Below the pieces are notes generated by a model that made no database searches, was not told the origin of the DNA, and saw only the letters and a list, made by a program, of their open reading frames with translations. Below, piece after piece: positions 37,237-48,763 of a stretch of 64,000 nt of DNA. Origin of the DNA: Sphingomonas carotinifaciens (GTDB lineage Bacteria; Pseudomonadota; Alphaproteobacteria; Sphingomonadales; Sphingomonadaceae); contig NZ_WSUT01000002.1 in the NCBI RefSeq assembly GCF_009789535.1, positions 1 through 64,000 on the forward strand. The letters run 5' to 3'. Position 1 is the stretch's first letter, and the number at the start of each line of letters is the position of its first letter. A program made the position numbers and the translations under genes.

Positions 37237-38763
37237 CTATGCCGCCCGGTGCCTGAACAATTTGCCTCGCAACTGTGCGAAAAGCTTCATCCCCATGGTT
37301 TCCATCCCTTCCGGGCGTCCGACCAGGGCCCAGGAAAGGAGCAGGATGGCGATGTAGGTGACGCCCCCGACGATGACCGTGGCGGCGACCGCGAGGATCG
37401 ACAGCGATTGGCGCAGGGCATCCGGCAGCAGCAGGATGGCCGCCGCCATGCCGGCTGTCGCCAGGGCGATGCGCCAGGGGGCGATCAATTGCGCGATGAT
37501 GCGCAGGCCGACGAGCTTGCGGACATAGCCCATCGTCACGACCATCAGGATCGCGTTGGTCGCCACGCGGCCGATGACCGCACCCGCGACACCGAATGTC
37601 CAGATCAGGCCGATCAGCAACGGGATCTTGATCGCAACTTCGACAAGGCGCTGTCGCAGGAAGATGGAGGTGCGGTCCATCGCCATCGCCATCGGGTCGA
37701 GCGGCGATACCCAGACGACGAAGATCGGTGCGATCGCGAGCCAGCGCAGCATCGGGATCGCGGTAATCCAGTTCGGCCCCAGCACGACGGGCACGACCTG
37801 ATCCGCGATCAGGCTCAGCCCCACCATGCCCGGCGCCGCGATGGTCAGCAGCGTCAGCGATATGCGCTGATAGGCCCGCGCCATGCGTTCGCATGAGTCC
37901 TTCATCGTCACGAAGCCGGCCATCAGCGGCCGCATCGCCGGCGCCACCAGCACCTGTTCGGGCACGGACGACAGGTCGGCCGCCATCGAGAAGTGGCCCA
38001 GATCGGCCTTGCCGATAAAGCGGCCCAGGATCAGCTTGTCGGATTGCCAACTGAGGGCGCCGAGCGCCTGCGCGAGGCTGGCCCAGCCTAGAAAACCGGC
38101 AAAGCTGCGCCACCGGACAAGGCTGAGCCGTGGCCGGAAGGGCGCAAAGAAGTAGGATTGCACCATGCTGGCAACCGGCGTGACCACCGTTCCCATCGCA
38201 ATCGCCCAATAGGAATGGGTTGCGATGGCAAGGCTGGTGGCGACCGAAAAGCCGCACAGCTTGCTGACGATCTCGATCACCAGATCGCGCCGGAAATCGA
38301 TGCGCCGGGCATATTGCACCATGGCCGGACTTTGCAGACCGCGCGTGATCGGGGCGAGCGCCAGGAACAGGATCAGCGGCACCAGCCGCGAATCCGAATA
38401 GGCATAGGAAAACGGTACCGCGGCCAGCGCGATCACCAGCGCCAGCAGGCCGCCGCGCATCAACCCGATGGTGAAGGCGGTGTTGAGATGGCTGCGGCCG
38501 ACACGGTCGAGCCGCACCATCGATTGCGAGATGGGCAGTTCCGACACTGCTTCGACGATGAAGATCAACGTCATCGCCACCGAGATCAGCCCGAAATCCT
38601 GCGGCGACAGGGTACGCGCCAGGACGATCAGCGTCGTGAAGTCGATCCCCCGCGCCGCCAGGCGGGACGCCATCAACCATGCCACGCTGCCCGCCGTACG
38701 CCGGCCGACGCCAGGGCGCGGCTGCTCGGGCACCGCCTTTTCCGTTTCTGTAACTGCCGTCAT
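37237..38763 (-). CDS. Wzx-type oligosaccharide flippase (paralog 1)
   Basis: A 508-residue MOP-superfamily membrane protein with about 12-14 hydrophobic segments. VLARTLSPQDFGLISVAMTL near residue 55 is the family signature in TM1-2; IDFRRDLVIEIVSKLCGF near 150 is also typical of the WzxC/SpsS-type group. It moves undecaprenyl-linked repeat units to the periplasmic face. It ends LRGKLFRHRAA, at the point where the second paralog (41913-43877) continues into an extra domain. Confidence 0.9.
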   Translation of the reverse strand: MTAVTETEKAVPEQPRPGVGRRTAGSVAWLMASRLAARGIDFTTLIVLARTLSPQDFGLISVAMTLIFIVEAVSELPISQSMVRLDRVGRSHLNTAFTIGLMRGGLLALVIALAAVPFSYAYSDSRLVPLILFLALAPITRGLQSPAMVQYARRIDFRRDLVIEIVSKLCGFSVATSLAIATHSYWAIAMGTVVTPVASMVQSYFFAPFRPRLSLVRWRSFAGFLGWASLAQALGALSWQSDKLILGRFIGKADLGHFSMAADLSSVPEQVLVAPAMRPLMAGFVTMKDSCERMARAYQRISLTLLTIAAPGMVGLSLIADQVVPVVLGPNWITAIPMLRWLAIAPIFVVWVSPLDPMAMAMDRTSIFLRQRLVEVAIKIPLLIGLIWTFGVAGAVIGRVATNAILMVVTMGYVRKLVGLRIIAQLIAPWRIALATAGMAAAILLLPDALRQSLSILAVAATVIVGGVTYIAILLLSWALVGRPEGMETMGMKLFAQLRGKLFRHRAA

Positions 38764-40252: not shown

Positions 40253-41740
40253 ATGGTCGTTCTCGGAATTTTCTGGCTGCTGTTCTTTGCCGCGGCCATC
40301 GCGGATGTCCGGTGGACGCTGTACCTGTTCTTCAGCAGCCTCGCTTTCGGATCGCTGGCGATCCTGCCCGTCAATCTGACGGGGGGTACGACGTTCCTGC
40401 CCCTGACCGCCTGCGCAGGACTGTTGTGCATCAAGGCCTTTCTGGCATCCGGTCGGCCCCATCTGCTGGTCGACGGGCTGATCGACTATAACAAGCTGGG
40501 CCTGCTGACCGCGTTCATGGCCTTTGCATTGGCGGTCACCTACACCGCGCCCTTCCTGTTCAGCGGGGCGCCGGTCATGGGTCTGAACAACATCCGGCGC
40601 AGCGCACTGGGTTTCGGTTCGGGCAATATCACCCAGCCTTTGTACCTGCTGTCCTCCTTTGCGATCACCATATCGATCTACCAGCTGCTGTTGCAGACCG
40701 ACACGCGCCGGCTGGTCTACAAGGCGATCTTCGTCGGGGGTGTCGTGGCGATGTTCGCCGGCCTGCTCGACATGGCAACCGCCGGCACAGGTCTGCTCGC
40801 TCCGCTGCGTACCGCGACCTATGTGATCATGGACGGCGACGATGTCGGCGGCATGCGCCGGGTGATCGGCTTCAACACCGAGGCTTCGGGTTATGGCGCA
40901 TTGGTGCTTTCCTTTGCCTCGATGATCTATTTCATGAAGATCGGCCAGGCGCTGGGCGGTGTCTATGCAAAGCTGGAGATGCCGCTGGCCTTGATGCTGG
41001 TCCTGTTGACCGTGCTATCGACATCGTCCGCCGCGTTTCTCGGCCTGGCTGTGTTCGGTTTGATCGCGGTCGGCAGCAACGTGCTGGCGCTGCGGCACGG
41101 TGCGGATGAGAAGCGCGCGGTCATCGAATTGCTGTTCATCGGCGCCGCGATCCTGTGCTGCATCGCGCTGATCATCGCGACGCCCAGCCTGTTCGGCGGG
41201 TTGTTCGATCTGGTCGACAAGACCGTGCTGAACAAGACGTCGAGCAGCTCCTTCTCGGAGCGGAGCAGCTGGAACACCGTCAGCCTGGAAGGGCTGTTCG
41301 CCACGGGCGGTTATGGCGTCGGGGTGGGATCGACGCGCGCATCCTCCTGGCCGGTCGCGGTACTCAGCAGCACCGGCATCGTCGGTGCCATGCTGATGAT
41401 CCTGTTCTTCCTGCGGATTTTCACGCTTTCGCTGCGCGGTGCCAGCCATGAGATACGCCGGGTCGTCACTGGCGCGCGCTACAGCATTCTGGTGTGCATG
41501 GTGCCCGGTGCGGTCGCCGGCACGCTGGTCGATTTCGGCGCGTATAATGCCGCGCTGTTCGCGATCACGGCTGCGCTGCCCTTCCTGAGTGCCGTCGGCC
41601 AGCCTATCCGTCGCTCGCGCCGGGCCATGCATCCGGCCCCCGGTACGGTTTCGATACCAGCGCCGCCTGTGCAAGGTCAGCCCAGCCATCGCGGTCGACG
41701 CCGCACCCAGCAGCGCCGTGTGCGTCCGGTTCGTACCTGA
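40253..41740 (+). CDS. Wzy-like EPS polymerase
   Basis: A 495-residue integral membrane protein from ATG 40253, with about 11-12 hydrophobic segments. The large periplasmic loop (TPSLFGGLFDLVDKTVLNKT followed by SSSSFSERSSWN) and the final TM region fit Wzy polymerases. Sequence conservation in this family is low, so the call rests on topology and place in the locus. It would join repeat units at the periplasmic face. The C-terminal 40 residues are Arg/Pro-rich and may be cytoplasmic. Confidence 0.78.
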   Translation: MVVLGIFWLLFFAAAIADVRWTLYLFFSSLAFGSLAILPVNLTGGTTFLPLTACAGLLCIKAFLASGRPHLLVDGLIDYNKLGLLTAFMAFALAVTYTAPFLFSGAPVMGLNNIRRSALGFGSGNITQPLYLLSSFAITISIYQLLLQTDTRRLVYKAIFVGGVVAMFAGLLDMATAGTGLLAPLRTATYVIMDGDDVGGMRRVIGFNTEASGYGALVLSFASMIYFMKIGQALGGVYAKLEMPLALMLVLLTVLSTSSAAFLGLAVFGLIAVGSNVLALRHGADEKRAVIELLFIGAAILCCIALIIATPSLFGGLFDLVDKTVLNKTSSSSFSERSSWNTVSLEGLFATGGYGVGVGSTRASSWPVAVLSSTGIVGAMLMILFFLRIFTLSLRGASHEIRRVVTGARYSILVCMVPGAVAGTLVDFGAYNAALFAITAALPFLSAVGQPIRRSRRAMHPAPGTVSIPAPPVQGQPSHRGRRRTQQRRVRPVRT

Positions 41741-41912: not shown

Positions 41913-43877
41913 TCAAGACCTCTTGCGGCGTGTGATTTGGGATTGGGTGAGGATACTCTGAAACTCCGGTGGATCTGTCTGCCGATCGACGTGCACGGCC
42001 CCGATCGGCGGGCGATGCGGCCGGCAGGATGCACAATGTCCGGCAACGTCGATAAATTCCGCCGCCATCCGGAAATCTGCCGCCCGCGCCGAGCCGTGGA
42101 TCGCATTCAACGCGATAGGGCTTTCAAGGGAAAGGGATTTCTTGCAACTCAGGCAGGTGAGACGGATGGTCTCGCGATGACGGACCGCCGGTACGGGGGC
42201 AGGATGTACCGGTTGCACCAGATTGGCCTGCGTCAGGATGTCGAGGATGCGGTAAACGCTGGAGGCAGCCGGATCGGCGGTGGATTTGTTGCTGGCCGTG
42301 GCAATCGCGAACATGCGGTCGCGGGTTTCGGCGGTGCTGAGCGGCGCATCCGACCGGGGCGCGGCGCGTGGTGAAAAACGGCCGCGCAGCACCATCTTGC
42401 CCATCAGGCCCAGCAGCATCGCCTCCGCGCCATCAGGGCGGCCGCGCCCATGCCAAAGCAGCAGGGTGGTCCCCGCAAATATCAGCGCGCCCAGACCCCC
42501 GAGCAGACCGATGGCCAGGACCAGTCCGATCTTGGACAGTCCGGGCGGGGCCAGTTGCAGGGCAGGGAGAACGACCGCGGCCATGGCCATGCAGCCGATG
42601 GCGGGCCGGCCGATGGCCTTGACCTGTGCCCAGGCGCTTACCCCGGATAGGCGCCGCGCCGCATCGATGGCCAGGGCGGCCAATACCAGCGCGGCTATCC
42701 CACGCGCGGCCGCGATGCCGGGAACCAGAAACAGCCAGCCTGCCGCGATAACCAGCGGCACCTTGACGAGGAAGTCGGTCAACTGACGGTTGAAGATCAG
42801 GTTGGATCGCCGCAATGCCAGCGCCAGCGCGTTGAGCGGCGTCCACAACAGCCCCGGTATGCCCGCCAGCGCCAGCCATTGCAGCACGGGTGCGACACTG
42901 CGCCACTTGTCATCCAGTGCGAGGCTGACGAGCGGCTGTGCCAGCAACGCGGTGCCGGTCAGAACGGGGAAGCCGACCAGGGCGACTACCGACAACGTCT
43001 TCAGATAGGCTTGTTGCAGCCTCTTGGGGTCTTCCCGCACGGCAACGAGCCCGGCCGACAACGGTCCAAGGATCGGCCCGAGCAGCACCTGGCCCGGAAT
43101 GGAGGCAAGATTGTCGGCCATGGTGAAGCGACCGACGACCGCAGGGATCGCCAGCCAGCCCAGTACCAGCCGGTCGATCTGCCATGCAAAGGCGGAAAAG
43201 AGCTGCGCACCGCTCAGCCATCCCAGAAAGTTCCGGAACATGGGCCATTCCCGCAGCGAGAGCGTGGGCAGATAGGGTGCCAGAACAAAGGACAAGCCGG
43301 CCGCGATTACCGGAGAAGCGATCGTGCCGATCGCCAGTGCCCAGTAGCTGCCCGTCGCCAGCGCGACCGCGGTCGATGCTGCGAGCGAGCCAAGCTTGCC
43401 GAAAATCTCGGTGGCGACGGTGCGCCGAAAATCCAGGTCGCGGCAATATAGCGCCAGCCGGGGATTGCTGATCCCGCGAACGGCAGGCGCGATCGACAGG
43501 GCGAGCACAAGCGGCAACAGGCGCATGTCGCCATAGGCGACCGCGAACGGCCAGGCGATGGCACCGATCACGATCGCCAGTACGATGCCGCGCAGCAGGC
43601 TGAGCGTGAACGCAGTGTCCATCATCGGGCGCGTAATGTCGCGTTCGACGAGCAGCACCTGTGATACTGGCAGCTCCATGATCGCCTCGACGATGAAGAT
43701 CAGGCTCATCGCGATACCGATCAGGCCGAAATCGGCAGGCGTGAGCAACCGCGCCAGCACGATCAACGCCAGCAGGTCGATGACCCGCGACAGCAATCGC
43801 CCCCCGACCGTCAGGATCGAGGCCAGCGCCGTCCGGTGCGACGCCGTGGCCGTGCCCGTGCCCGTCGCAGCCGTCAT
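41913..43877 (-). CDS. Wzx-type flippase (paralog 2) fused to a Fur-like C-terminal domain
   Basis: A 654-residue protein from ATG 43877. Residues 1 to about 510 are a Wzx flippase closely related to the one at 37237-38763 (VLARLLTPADFGLIGIAMSL, LDFRRTVATEIFGKL). Where the paralog stops (FRHRAA), this one runs on in frame (FSPRAAPRSDAPLSTAETRD). Residues about 515-620 resemble Fur/Zur proteins: SSVYRILDILTQANLVQPV is the wing/recognition-helix region with Tyr542. CLSC (575, 578) and CASC (615, 618) match the structural zinc site with the same 40-residue spacing as E. coli Fur C93/C133. The first helices of the Fur HTH are shortened. The domain would be cytoplasmic. A natural fusion is the simplest reading; loss of a stop codon or a sequencing error is the alternative. 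Confidence 0.82.
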   Translation of the reverse strand: MTAATGTGTATASHRTALASILTVGGRLLSRVIDLLALIVLARLLTPADFGLIGIAMSLIFIVEAIMELPVSQVLLVERDITRPMMDTAFTLSLLRGIVLAIVIGAIAWPFAVAYGDMRLLPLVLALSIAPAVRGISNPRLALYCRDLDFRRTVATEIFGKLGSLAASTAVALATGSYWALAIGTIASPVIAAGLSFVLAPYLPTLSLREWPMFRNFLGWLSGAQLFSAFAWQIDRLVLGWLAIPAVVGRFTMADNLASIPGQVLLGPILGPLSAGLVAVREDPKRLQQAYLKTLSVVALVGFPVLTGTALLAQPLVSLALDDKWRSVAPVLQWLALAGIPGLLWTPLNALALALRRSNLIFNRQLTDFLVKVPLVIAAGWLFLVPGIAAARGIAALVLAALAIDAARRLSGVSAWAQVKAIGRPAIGCMAMAAVVLPALQLAPPGLSKIGLVLAIGLLGGLGALIFAGTTLLLWHGRGRPDGAEAMLLGLMGKMVLRGRFSPRAAPRSDAPLSTAETRDRMFAIATASNKSTADPAASSVYRILDILTQANLVQPVHPAPVPAVRHRETIRLTCLSCKKSLSLESPIALNAIHGSARAADFRMAAEFIDVAGHCASCRPHRPPIGAVHVDRQTDPPEFQSILTQSQITRRKRS

Positions 43878-44275
43878 GCGCTATACTGCCCCCAGCGGCG
43901 GCTATTGGCAGCTATATGACGTTGCGTTTCCGACCATCCCGGCGCACCATGCAAATCATCGGCGACAAGAAACGTGATCGTGACAGGAGAGCATCCCCGC
44001 AATGCTGGGTAACGTGCACGCGTATGCGACGCATCCACTTGCATGAACATGATCATGAAGTTGAGCGATGTTGCGTCGTCGCGCGTGATATTTCTACATA
44101 CCGTCATCATATGCCGCCAGTTTGCACGTACCTGTTCGAATGAATTCGTTAAGCGTATGAAGTAACCAAATATTGACGCTGTTTTTGTATGCCCGCCAAG
44201 CTAAGCGACGGTAGATATGTTTACGGCCCCTTTACCTTTCCTCTGCATTGCTGCCTGGAACGACTGGGGAACGAC
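43878..44275. other. Intergenic region between flippase fusion and PilZ gene
   Basis: About 400 bp upstream of two divergent genes. The PilZ frame is open back to 44189 without conserved content. No clear operator was recognised. Confidence 0.4.
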
Positions 44276-44791
44276 ATGCCAATTGCTGCGCAGATGACGA
44301 GCGACGATCGCGGTTTCGCGCGCTTTACGGTCGATCTGAACGCCACGTTGCGGGACAAGATCACGCGCCCGCATGATGTGACGATCGAGGATCTTTCACT
44401 GACCGGTTTTCGTCTGAGTGGCGCACCGGATCTGCCGGTCGGTGCCTCCATATCCATCGGCTTTGCGGGCATCGGCACGCACCAGGCGCGCATCATGCGC
44501 CGGGATGCGGACATATATGGCTGTGAGTTTATCACGCCGATCACGCAGGACATGTTGCACATGGCTTTGCACACGCCGATCGAAGCACCGATCGCCTTTC
44601 TGCCGGCGGTAGGAGCACCACGGTCCGACGGCATGCGGGCCACAGCGTCGATTGCGGAACCGCTGCAGCTTGGCGATGCGCCTGAACCTTATGTCGAGCC
44701 CTATGCCCCGCGCACCAAGCTGACGATCGCGGTGATCGCAGCCGTGGCGGCATGGGCGGCCGCGATCGGATTATACCTCTCGGTCGCATAA
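44276..44791 (+). CDS. PilZ domain protein with C-terminal membrane anchor
   Basis: A 171-residue protein from ATG 44276 (GGGGA 7 bp upstream). The PilZ core is seen as RFTVDLNATL, then DVTIEDLSLTGFRLSG (D/NxSxxG) near residue 45 and GCEFITPI near 88. The N-terminal Arg motif is weak (DDRGFARFTV), so c-di-GMP binding is plausible but not assured. A single C-terminal span (LTIAVIAAVAAWAAAIGLYL) anchors it in the inner membrane. It may couple c-di-GMP to EPS assembly. Confidence 0.75.
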   Translation: MPIAAQMTSDDRGFARFTVDLNATLRDKITRPHDVTIEDLSLTGFRLSGAPDLPVGASISIGFAGIGTHQARIMRRDADIYGCEFITPITQDMLHMALHTPIEAPIAFLPAVGAPRSDGMRATASIAEPLQLGDAPEPYVEPYAPRTKLTIAVIAAVAAWAAAIGLYLSVA

Positions 44792-47162: not shown

Positions 47163-47323
47163 AAACCCGTGGCCACCAGCCGTCCCTCTTTAAGTTATTG
47201 TCGATGCAGCCACATCGTATGTTTTCGGGACACGGCGCCAATCTGGCGTGATCTGACGCTATTGGGTATTCCATCGCGCGACGACCGGCACGCCATGGGC
47301 CGGCAGAATGTGAATGATCCGTG

Positions 47324-48763
47324 ATGCGCAGCCCCGGCACCTCTCAAGACCAAGACGCCAATGCCCAGCGGAGCGCTACCCACGACCGGGCGGGGGCCGT
47401 GCCCGACCACAAGCTCGGGCGAGATAGCGGTGAGCTGGCATGGGCGACGCCGTTGATCGCGGCGCTGCTGATGATGGAGCTGGCGTTGGGCGGGGCGAAT
47501 GACGCGGTGTCGAGCGGGGTGGCGTCCTTTGCGACCGCGCTGGTGGCGGGGTTCGTTCTGTACCGGTCGCCTGGGGAATCGCGCTTCTGGGGGCGGGCGC
47601 GGGTGCCGCTCTGCCTGTTCGGGGGGGCGCTGTTGTGGAGTGCGCTGCCCGCGGTGGTGCCCGTGTCGGTGCGGCCTGCGGCGGACCTGTTCGGGCTGGC
47701 GCTGGCGAAGGCGTTGGCAACGACGCTGTTGCTCGTCGCCGCAGCGCTGCTCGCCTATCGGTCTGGCTCGCCCTCCAGGCTGGTGCGGTGGCTCACGATC
47801 TTCGGGATCGTCTACATCCTGTATGCCGCAGTGGACGCGATCGACTGGCTGTACGATGCGGCACATGCCACGCGCTATGCCGGAACGCTGGGCAACACCA
47901 ATGCGGCCGGCATCGTCTTTGCGGTCGTCGCCCTGCTGGCGGGCGGTGTCGTCCTATCGCCGGGCGAGGAAGCCAGGGGGGGCATGGCGCTGCGCCTCGC
48001 CGCTTTGGCAGGCTGTGCCGTGGCGCTGATCCTTTGCGCGATGACCGGCAGCCGTAGCGCGGTGCTGTTGGCCGTGCTGTTCGGAGGCGTGATACTGGCG
48101 TTGCGGTTGATACGGCGCGATGGCGCGGCCCCGCCGATCGGGGCCGTCGCGATCGGCGCCGTCGCCCTGCTGGGGCTGGTGACGATCGTTGCCCTGATCA
48201 CACCGATGGCCGATCGATCAAGCTACCTTGCCGCAGATGCCGGCCTGCGCTGGGACAGCATCCGCCATTATGCCGGGGTGGCGTGGAGCAGCCCCGTCTG
48301 GGGTTACGGTCTTGGCAGTTTCTTCGAGATCAATCTCCAGACGCTGACGCCCGGCACCGCACCGATCTACTGGAATTTCGGTGCTGCGCATAACGCACCG
48401 ATCCAGTTGGTGATGGAAGCAGGGCTGCCATGCCTGGCGCTGCTGCTGATCGGTCTGGCCATCATGGCGCGGCAGGTGTTCACCGTCCGGCGCGACTGGT
48501 CGTCGGTCGCTGTCCTGTGTGCGATCGGGGCGATCGGCGGGAGCGCGATGATCGACATCGCCCTGAACGTGCCGGCGATCGCCGCGCTGTTCGCGGTGCT
48601 GGTGGGCGCGCTATGGGGTTCGGCTCTGGCCGGGCACGTTTCGCTTCGGCGCGCATCGCTTCGCCGGAGGTCAGTGGGGCGCCCGCGTCCGCAGCGCGTA
48701 GCGCACCGCCATCGGGGACCCCCCAAGGATCGCGGCCAGCCGATCGTTGAACCGACCGTCTAG
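47324..48763 (+). CDS. O-antigen ligase/Wzy_C family membrane protein
   Basis: A 479-residue protein from ATG 47324 (a GTG precedes it directly). About 10-12 hydrophobic segments. The Wzy_C core is seen as LGNTNAAGIVFAVVALL, MTGSRSAVLLAVLFGG and the loop WGYGLGSFFEINLQTLTPG, with NFGAAHNAPIQLVMEAGLP (His in the typical HN pair) near 355. It may be a second polymerase or ligate chains to a carrier. The last 30 codons overlap the convergent gene's 3' end by 93 bp. Confidence 0.83.
   Translation: MRSPGTSQDQDANAQRSATHDRAGAVPDHKLGRDSGELAWATPLIAALLMMELALGGANDAVSSGVASFATALVAGFVLYRSPGESRFWGRARVPLCLFGGALLWSALPAVVPVSVRPAADLFGLALAKALATTLLLVAAALLAYRSGSPSRLVRWLTIFGIVYILYAAVDAIDWLYDAAHATRYAGTLGNTNAAGIVFAVVALLAGGVVLSPGEEARGGMALRLAALAGCAVALILCAMTGSRSAVLLAVLFGGVILALRLIRRDGAAPPIGAVAIGAVALLGLVTIVALITPMADRSSYLAADAGLRWDSIRHYAGVAWSSPVWGYGLGSFFEINLQTLTPGTAPIYWNFGAAHNAPIQLVMEAGLPCLALLLIGLAIMARQVFTVRRDWSSVAVLCAIGAIGGSAMIDIALNVPAIAALFAVLVGALWGSALAGHVSLRRASLRRRSVGRPRPQRVAHRHRGPPKDRGQPIVEPTV

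Follow-up and report, generated by a model that had tools for sequence, protein, structure and literature searches.

A flippase of a Sphingomonas polysaccharide locus with an in-frame C-terminal tail homologous to Zur

The matching of a lipid-linked oligosaccharide flippase to its polymerase, or its post-translational regulation, is largely an open matter. A polysaccharide locus of Sphingomonas carotinifaciens raises the question of why one of its two flippases ends in a domain resembling a Fur-family regulator, and what this domain might do there. The locus lies within the first 64,000 nucleotides of contig NZ_WSUT01000002.1, the whole stretch analyzed here and hereafter called the window. 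A first-pass annotation had described the product as a flippase with a Fur-family domain bearing a structural Cys4 motif, and we found this to be a genuine in-frame fusion. Its authors' belief that the architecture had not been described accords with our survey of the open-access literature by title or displayed abstract, in which no flippase-Zur/Fur fusion was found. Each half is a member of a known family; what is new is their combination in one protein and the proposed exaptation.

The fused gene and its occurrence

The gene at 41913-43877 (minus strand) is a single 654-residue frame with no internal stops (Table 1). Its flippase part matched PF13440 and PF01943 of Pfam, with Polysacc_synt above the curated cut-off, and a structure model gave a 14-helix MOP arrangement with the MurJ/WzxE fold. 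By domain and fold, the product is a MOP/Wzx flippase, for which flipping of a lipid-linked oligosaccharide is predicted. The domains, the MurJ/WzxE fold, and the setting in an EPS cluster are common to the MOP oligosaccharide flippases (Wzx, WzxE, MurJ, and TuaB), whereas the soluble C-terminal domain of Fur-family origin, which is under selection, is an addition. As had been pointed out, the frame continues beyond the end of its paralogue, which is 508 residues long and lacks the tail. Within the tail, SVYRILD starts at S540, and the reported cysteine motif (C575-x2-C578...C615-x2-C618, with 40 residues from the first to the third cysteine) was found. The Fur-like tail of about 105 residues proposed at first thus stands as an in-frame domain, although homology is limited to R519-C618. 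The last 36 residues differ from the ends of the homologues P0003-P0013, several of which end in a PYPKRP-like motif.

Table 1. Positions of the fused gene, its parts, and two further genes in the window
Feature	Positions	Strand	Remarks
Flippase with Zur-derived tail, whole gene	41913..43877	-	654 codons + stop
Flippase core, residues 12-481	42435..43844	-	MOP/Wzx fold, 14 predicted membrane helices
Variable linker, residues 501-518	42324..42377	-	Invariant residues 0/17 in 501-517 (12 rows)
Zur-homologous tail, residues 519-618 (R519-C618)	42024..42323	-	From profile and hhalign comparison
Former recognition helix segment, residues 536-553, PAASSVYRILDILTQANL	42219..42272	-	15/18 invariant (12 rows); dN/dS 0.084
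Dimerisation-type domain, residues 571-618	42024..42167	-	C575, C578, C615, C618 (structural zinc site)
C-terminal extension, residues 619-654	41916..42023	-	Without counterpart in P0003-P0013
Second flippase, no tail, same locus	37237..38763	-	508 aa
Divergent PilZ-domain gene	44276..44791	+	PF07238 E 1.7e-8; adjoins tailed flippase in 5/5 loci

A protein search among the 8000 candidates sharing most words with the query yielded 12 homologues of 630 to 679 residues with a query coverage of 93 to 100%. One of them (P0002) is a near copy (98%), and the remaining 11 share 65 to 69% identity and the same in-frame tail; the next 17 matches among these candidates (P0014-P0030) have 491 to 543 residues and a query coverage of 65 to 76%. 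The SVYRILD segment and the four cysteines are kept in all 13 aligned tailed proteins. The first-pass annotation had suggested looking for the fusion in other sphingomonads, and among 295 Sphingomonas genomes, 5 (counting the source genome) matched a profile of the tail at an E value of 4.5e-48 or better. The best non-carrier genome gave 1.4e-20, and the non-carrier loci inspected are stand-alone Zur. With the whole protein as the query, the other four tailed genes showed 65 to 69% identity, and the next genome (G018) has a tail-less 520-residue frame with 52% identity. In a sample of 397 genomes from 96 genera of the family, 2 matched the tail profile at 1e-25 or better, both of them Sphingomonas. 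Named carriers are S. melonis AS2.3, Sphingomonas sp. RIT328, and Sphingomonas sp. Leaf21.

We found no stand-alone version of the shortened domain among 7994 scored candidates, the 11 matches to the tail profile (122 to 181 residues) all carrying the FUR Pfam domain. Nor were other fusion partners found among 756 candidates scored with the tail region of P0004: its 8 matches are all known tailed flippases, in a search whose reach was short enough to miss P0001 and P0011-P0013.

The probability that a sequencing or assembly error joined two genes is practically negligible: its sole support is that the tail encoded in the window scores low against Pfam, whereas the junction and frame are identical in 5 genomes and in 11 further proteins, and no conserved in-frame ATG lies between the flippase end and the tail to start a separate protein. 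The stop codon or frameshift that had been considered at the junction was not seen, and the same in-frame junction in independent genomes rules out a frameshift or sequencing artefact. Initiation of a separate protein inside the gene was likewise rejected, since the 75 codons ahead of SVYR contain no suitable ATG that all 5 loci have. They have a single in-frame ATG in common, that of the Met at -53 to -58, where the flippase part ends, and the Met at -18 before SVYR occurs in the window's sequence alone.

The 11 tailed rows included in a tree of 61 flippase cores group as a single clade (100/99), and its sister clade consists of 18 rows, all tail-less. Judged by this tree, the tail was gained once. 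A six-row branch elsewhere in the tree (97/94; P0033, P0038, P0051, P0052, P0060, and P0063) comprises MOP flippases of 606 to 621 residues that bear another C-terminal extension of about 110 residues, unrelated to the Zur-derived tail. The pieces of it that were tested had no Pfam match, and a profile of 4 of the 6 rows had no PDB match; the extension looks DUF952-like. Four of these flippases (P0033, P0051, P0060, and P0063) may share contigs with the tail-less P0018, P0022, P0019, and P0026.

The polysaccharide locus

Glycosyltransferases, a Wzy_C gene, a Wzz/AAA_31 gene, and the two flippases make the locus a Wzx/Wzy-type polysaccharide cluster, which is common to the 4 further tailed loci. 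At an E value of 1e-80 or better, each of the 5 tailed genomes has two flippase matches, and the 8 other genomes with a match have one each (up to 4 candidates scored per genome). The Wzy_C domain is encoded at 47321-48763 (plus strand); the gene at 40253-41740 (plus strand) had no Pfam match and is polymerase-like only by eye, so that the locus perhaps holds two flippases and two polymerases.

The PilZ-domain gene is a candidate c-di-GMP link to the tailed flippase. Its likely start at 44276 is inferred from the starts of its relatives, the listed open reading frame starting at 44189. In G018, about 16.5 kb separates the tail-less flippase from the nearest PilZ relative, which is on the same contig. 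By eye, no conserved palindrome was found in the aligned flippase-PilZ intergenic regions of the tailed loci. A direct repeat, TTYAC-N6-TTTAC, lies at 44220-44236 (plus strand), some 40 bases upstream of the likely PilZ start, and is aligned in the 5 loci; exact matches occur once in the window and 3 times genome-wide, compared with 1 match of the reversed control pattern.

Relationship of the tail to Zur

The window's own tail matched the Pfam FUR family below threshold (11.9 and 13.0 bits; cut-off, 23.1), and the case for the Fur family therefore rests on the tails of its relatives. All 12 tails matched FUR (PF01475) at E values up to 1, with a best value of 4.7e-5. Against the PDB, the tail-family profile retrieved Zur and Fur chains (best E value, 2.4e-9), the Fur family accounting for 15 of the 18 sequences matched. 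The others were two IAP protein chains near E values of 0.4 to 1 and the TAL-effector repeat protein 4osk, second best at 3.4e-9, a match that we take as a sum over repeats, no single stretch being significant. Comparison with Zur of the genus by hhalign gave an E value of 7e-18 and a score of 107.4, against a maximum of 19.6 for 100 column-shuffled controls. Among NCBI models, PerR almost equals Zur (11/12 tails each; best E values, 1.8e-6 and 1e-6, respectively), and in a tree of the Fur family, whose bootstrap had not settled, the tail has a long stem. On these comparisons, the tail shares ancestry with the Fur-family regulator Zur; the homology extends over the recognition helix and the dimerisation domain. 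Besides, the tail (41916-42374, minus strand) matches a phage family of unknown function, phrog_13084, at an E value of 2e-6, presumably a phage-borne Fur-like protein.

The segment SVYRILDILTQANL, previously assigned to the wing-helix region of Fur, corresponds in the alignment to the DNA-recognition helix region of Zur and not to the wing; the helix is named as in the literature on Zur (PMC4219657). SVYRILD, the Cys4 spacing, and the dimerisation fold are common to the tail and to Zur of Sphingomonas and its solved relative, Xanthomonas Zur (7dh7). The tail differs in being fused to a membrane flippase and in lacking the sensory hinge, about 13 residues of the DNA-binding part, and any conserved His. 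In all 13 tails, the hinge before the first CxxC is 5 residues shorter than in Zur of the genus, where this stretch carries candidate sensory Cys/His residues. Global hhalign comparison with the same Zur placed a 13-residue gap ahead of the recognition helix, around helices 2-3, whereas a MAFFT alignment of the same rows placed the loss of about 13 residues at the N-terminus. The winged-helix domain is thus incomplete, as the first-pass annotation had recognized in a shortened N-terminal helix-turn-helix.

Folded alone, the tail recovered the dimerisation fold, with one helix before the recognition helix (pTM 0.38); the Zur rows in the alignment make this model lean towards the Zur fold. Its best structural match had a Z score of 5.9, under the value of 8 below which the tool warns of common arrangements. 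A full-length model made without Zur rows showed the same strand-strand-helix-strand order in the tail at low confidence, and its structural search returned flippase-like folds only, as the tool warns may happen. With the N-terminus assumed to be inside, the loops are positive inside (16 K+R in 116 residues versus 5 in 90), and the tail is probably cytoplasmic.

Conservation within the tail is highest in the former recognition helix. Across 12 sequences, its 15 invariant residues out of 18 compare with 257/470 in the flippase and 8/48 in the dimerisation fold. Pooled over 10 pairs from 5 loci, which are not independent, dN/dS was lower in the helix (0.084) than in the flippase (0.245), the dimerisation fold (0.418), the hinge (0.597), and the first tail helix (0.643). 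The synonymous divergence (pS) is the same in the helix (0.352) as in the flippase (0.366). The constraint thus acts on amino acids, and constraint at the DNA level was rejected as its cause. The helix most likely has a job.

Possible roles of the tail

We hold it to be moderately probable that the tail is an exapted Zur remnant that gives one of the two EPS-locus flippases a zinc-stapled module for pairing or docking. In this view, a single fusion event in a small branch of Sphingomonas would have joined a copy of a sphingomonad Zur gene to the 3' end of a gene for a Wzx-type EPS flippase. The copy would then have dropped the metal-sensing hinge and part of the DNA-binding domain, while the Cys4 site, the former recognition helix, and the dimerisation fold persisted. 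The tail, probably cytoplasmic, would as a protein-protein module pair two flippases, or use the conserved helix to dock a partner from the polysaccharide machinery, and might in this way channel the repeat unit of the tailed flippase rather than that of the second one. The apparent loss of the sensing site, together with retention of a zinc-held core and the conserved helix, makes such a module likelier than a metal sensor. The earlier guess that the domain dimerises rather than binds DNA was the better half of what had been proposed, and the conservation of the helix points past it. Several observations speak against the module: the dimerisation fold evolves fast, with few invariant residues; the strongest conservation falls on the helix that binds DNA in Zur, which fits DNA binding equally; the whole tail is more positive than whole Zur, as given below; and the model of the tail has a pTM of 0.38 and a best Z score under 8.

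It is possible, though unlikely, that a transporter has captured a transcription-factor fold whose former recognition helix now docks a cytoplasmic signalling partner, either the neighboring PilZ protein or, via the dimerisation fold, Zur itself; flipping of one of the two EPS repeat units would then be controlled directly and post-translationally by c-di-GMP or by the zinc regulator.

Rather improbable, in our judgment, is a membrane-tethered regulator whose Cys4-dimerised tail binds DNA via the recognition helix, for instance, in the flippase-PilZ intergenic region. The low dN/dS of the helix and the net positive charge of the whole tail in 13/13 proteins (+2 to +6, versus 0 to -4 in four Zur) favor it, whereas the segment around the helix runs in the opposite direction (0 to -1 over 43 residues, versus +2 to +3 over 60 residues in the four Zur). 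SVYR, invariant in 13/13, also argues for it, since by motif we take two of its residues to correspond to Tyr64 and Arg65 in E. coli Zur. The missing stretch of about 13 residues, however, should hold the equivalent of Tyr45, the other base-reading residue. Besides, the wing and hinge are shortened, and the intergenic regions showed no palindrome by eye. According to PMC4219657, which gives the roles of Tyr64 and Arg65, E. coli Zur no longer binds DNA once either of its zinc sites is lost.

We give only a small probability to a metal or redox sensor, in which the Cys4 or a new site would report zinc or oxidant to the flippase and link EPS export to metal status, as the first-pass annotation had proposed in part. 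Its Cys4 motif, a predicted zinc site, is kept in every tail, and Zn-Cys4 sites of the Fur family have reportedly been discussed as redox switches (title of PDB entry 2fe3). No His and no fifth Cys is conserved in at least 11 of the 12 rows over residues 515-619, where the H, D, E, C, K, or R residues kept at this level are D/E517, R519, D520, R543, and D546 besides the four cysteines. Given the short hinge and these absences, a sensor site of the His/Cys type is missing as far as the sequence tells, and metal sensing by the tail is not supported. In E. coli Zur, according to PMC4219657, the sensory zinc is bound by His77, Cys88, His96, and Glu111, the structural zinc is held by four cysteines, and a Cys103 mutant does not form stable dimers, so that the Cys4 site is needed for dimerisation. 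PMC6103462 describes the structural site of Zur as non-labile, and it is to this site that the tail's Cys4 motif corresponds.

It is very improbable that the tail is a passenger, a decaying Zur remnant that the end of the flippase tolerates and that has no function. The presence of the tail in so few genomes of the genus would suit this reading, as would the rapid evolution of its first helix, hinge, and dimerisation fold, but the dN/dS of the helix (for all that the pairs are not independent), its invariant residues, and the Cys4 in every row argue to the contrary.

As a selected soluble domain of single origin, carried by only one flippase of a locus that has two, the tail offers a removable handle on flippase-polymerase matching or regulation. 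It also presents a clear case of a regulator fold without its sensing part, in which the recognition helix is under stronger selection than the transporter that carries it.
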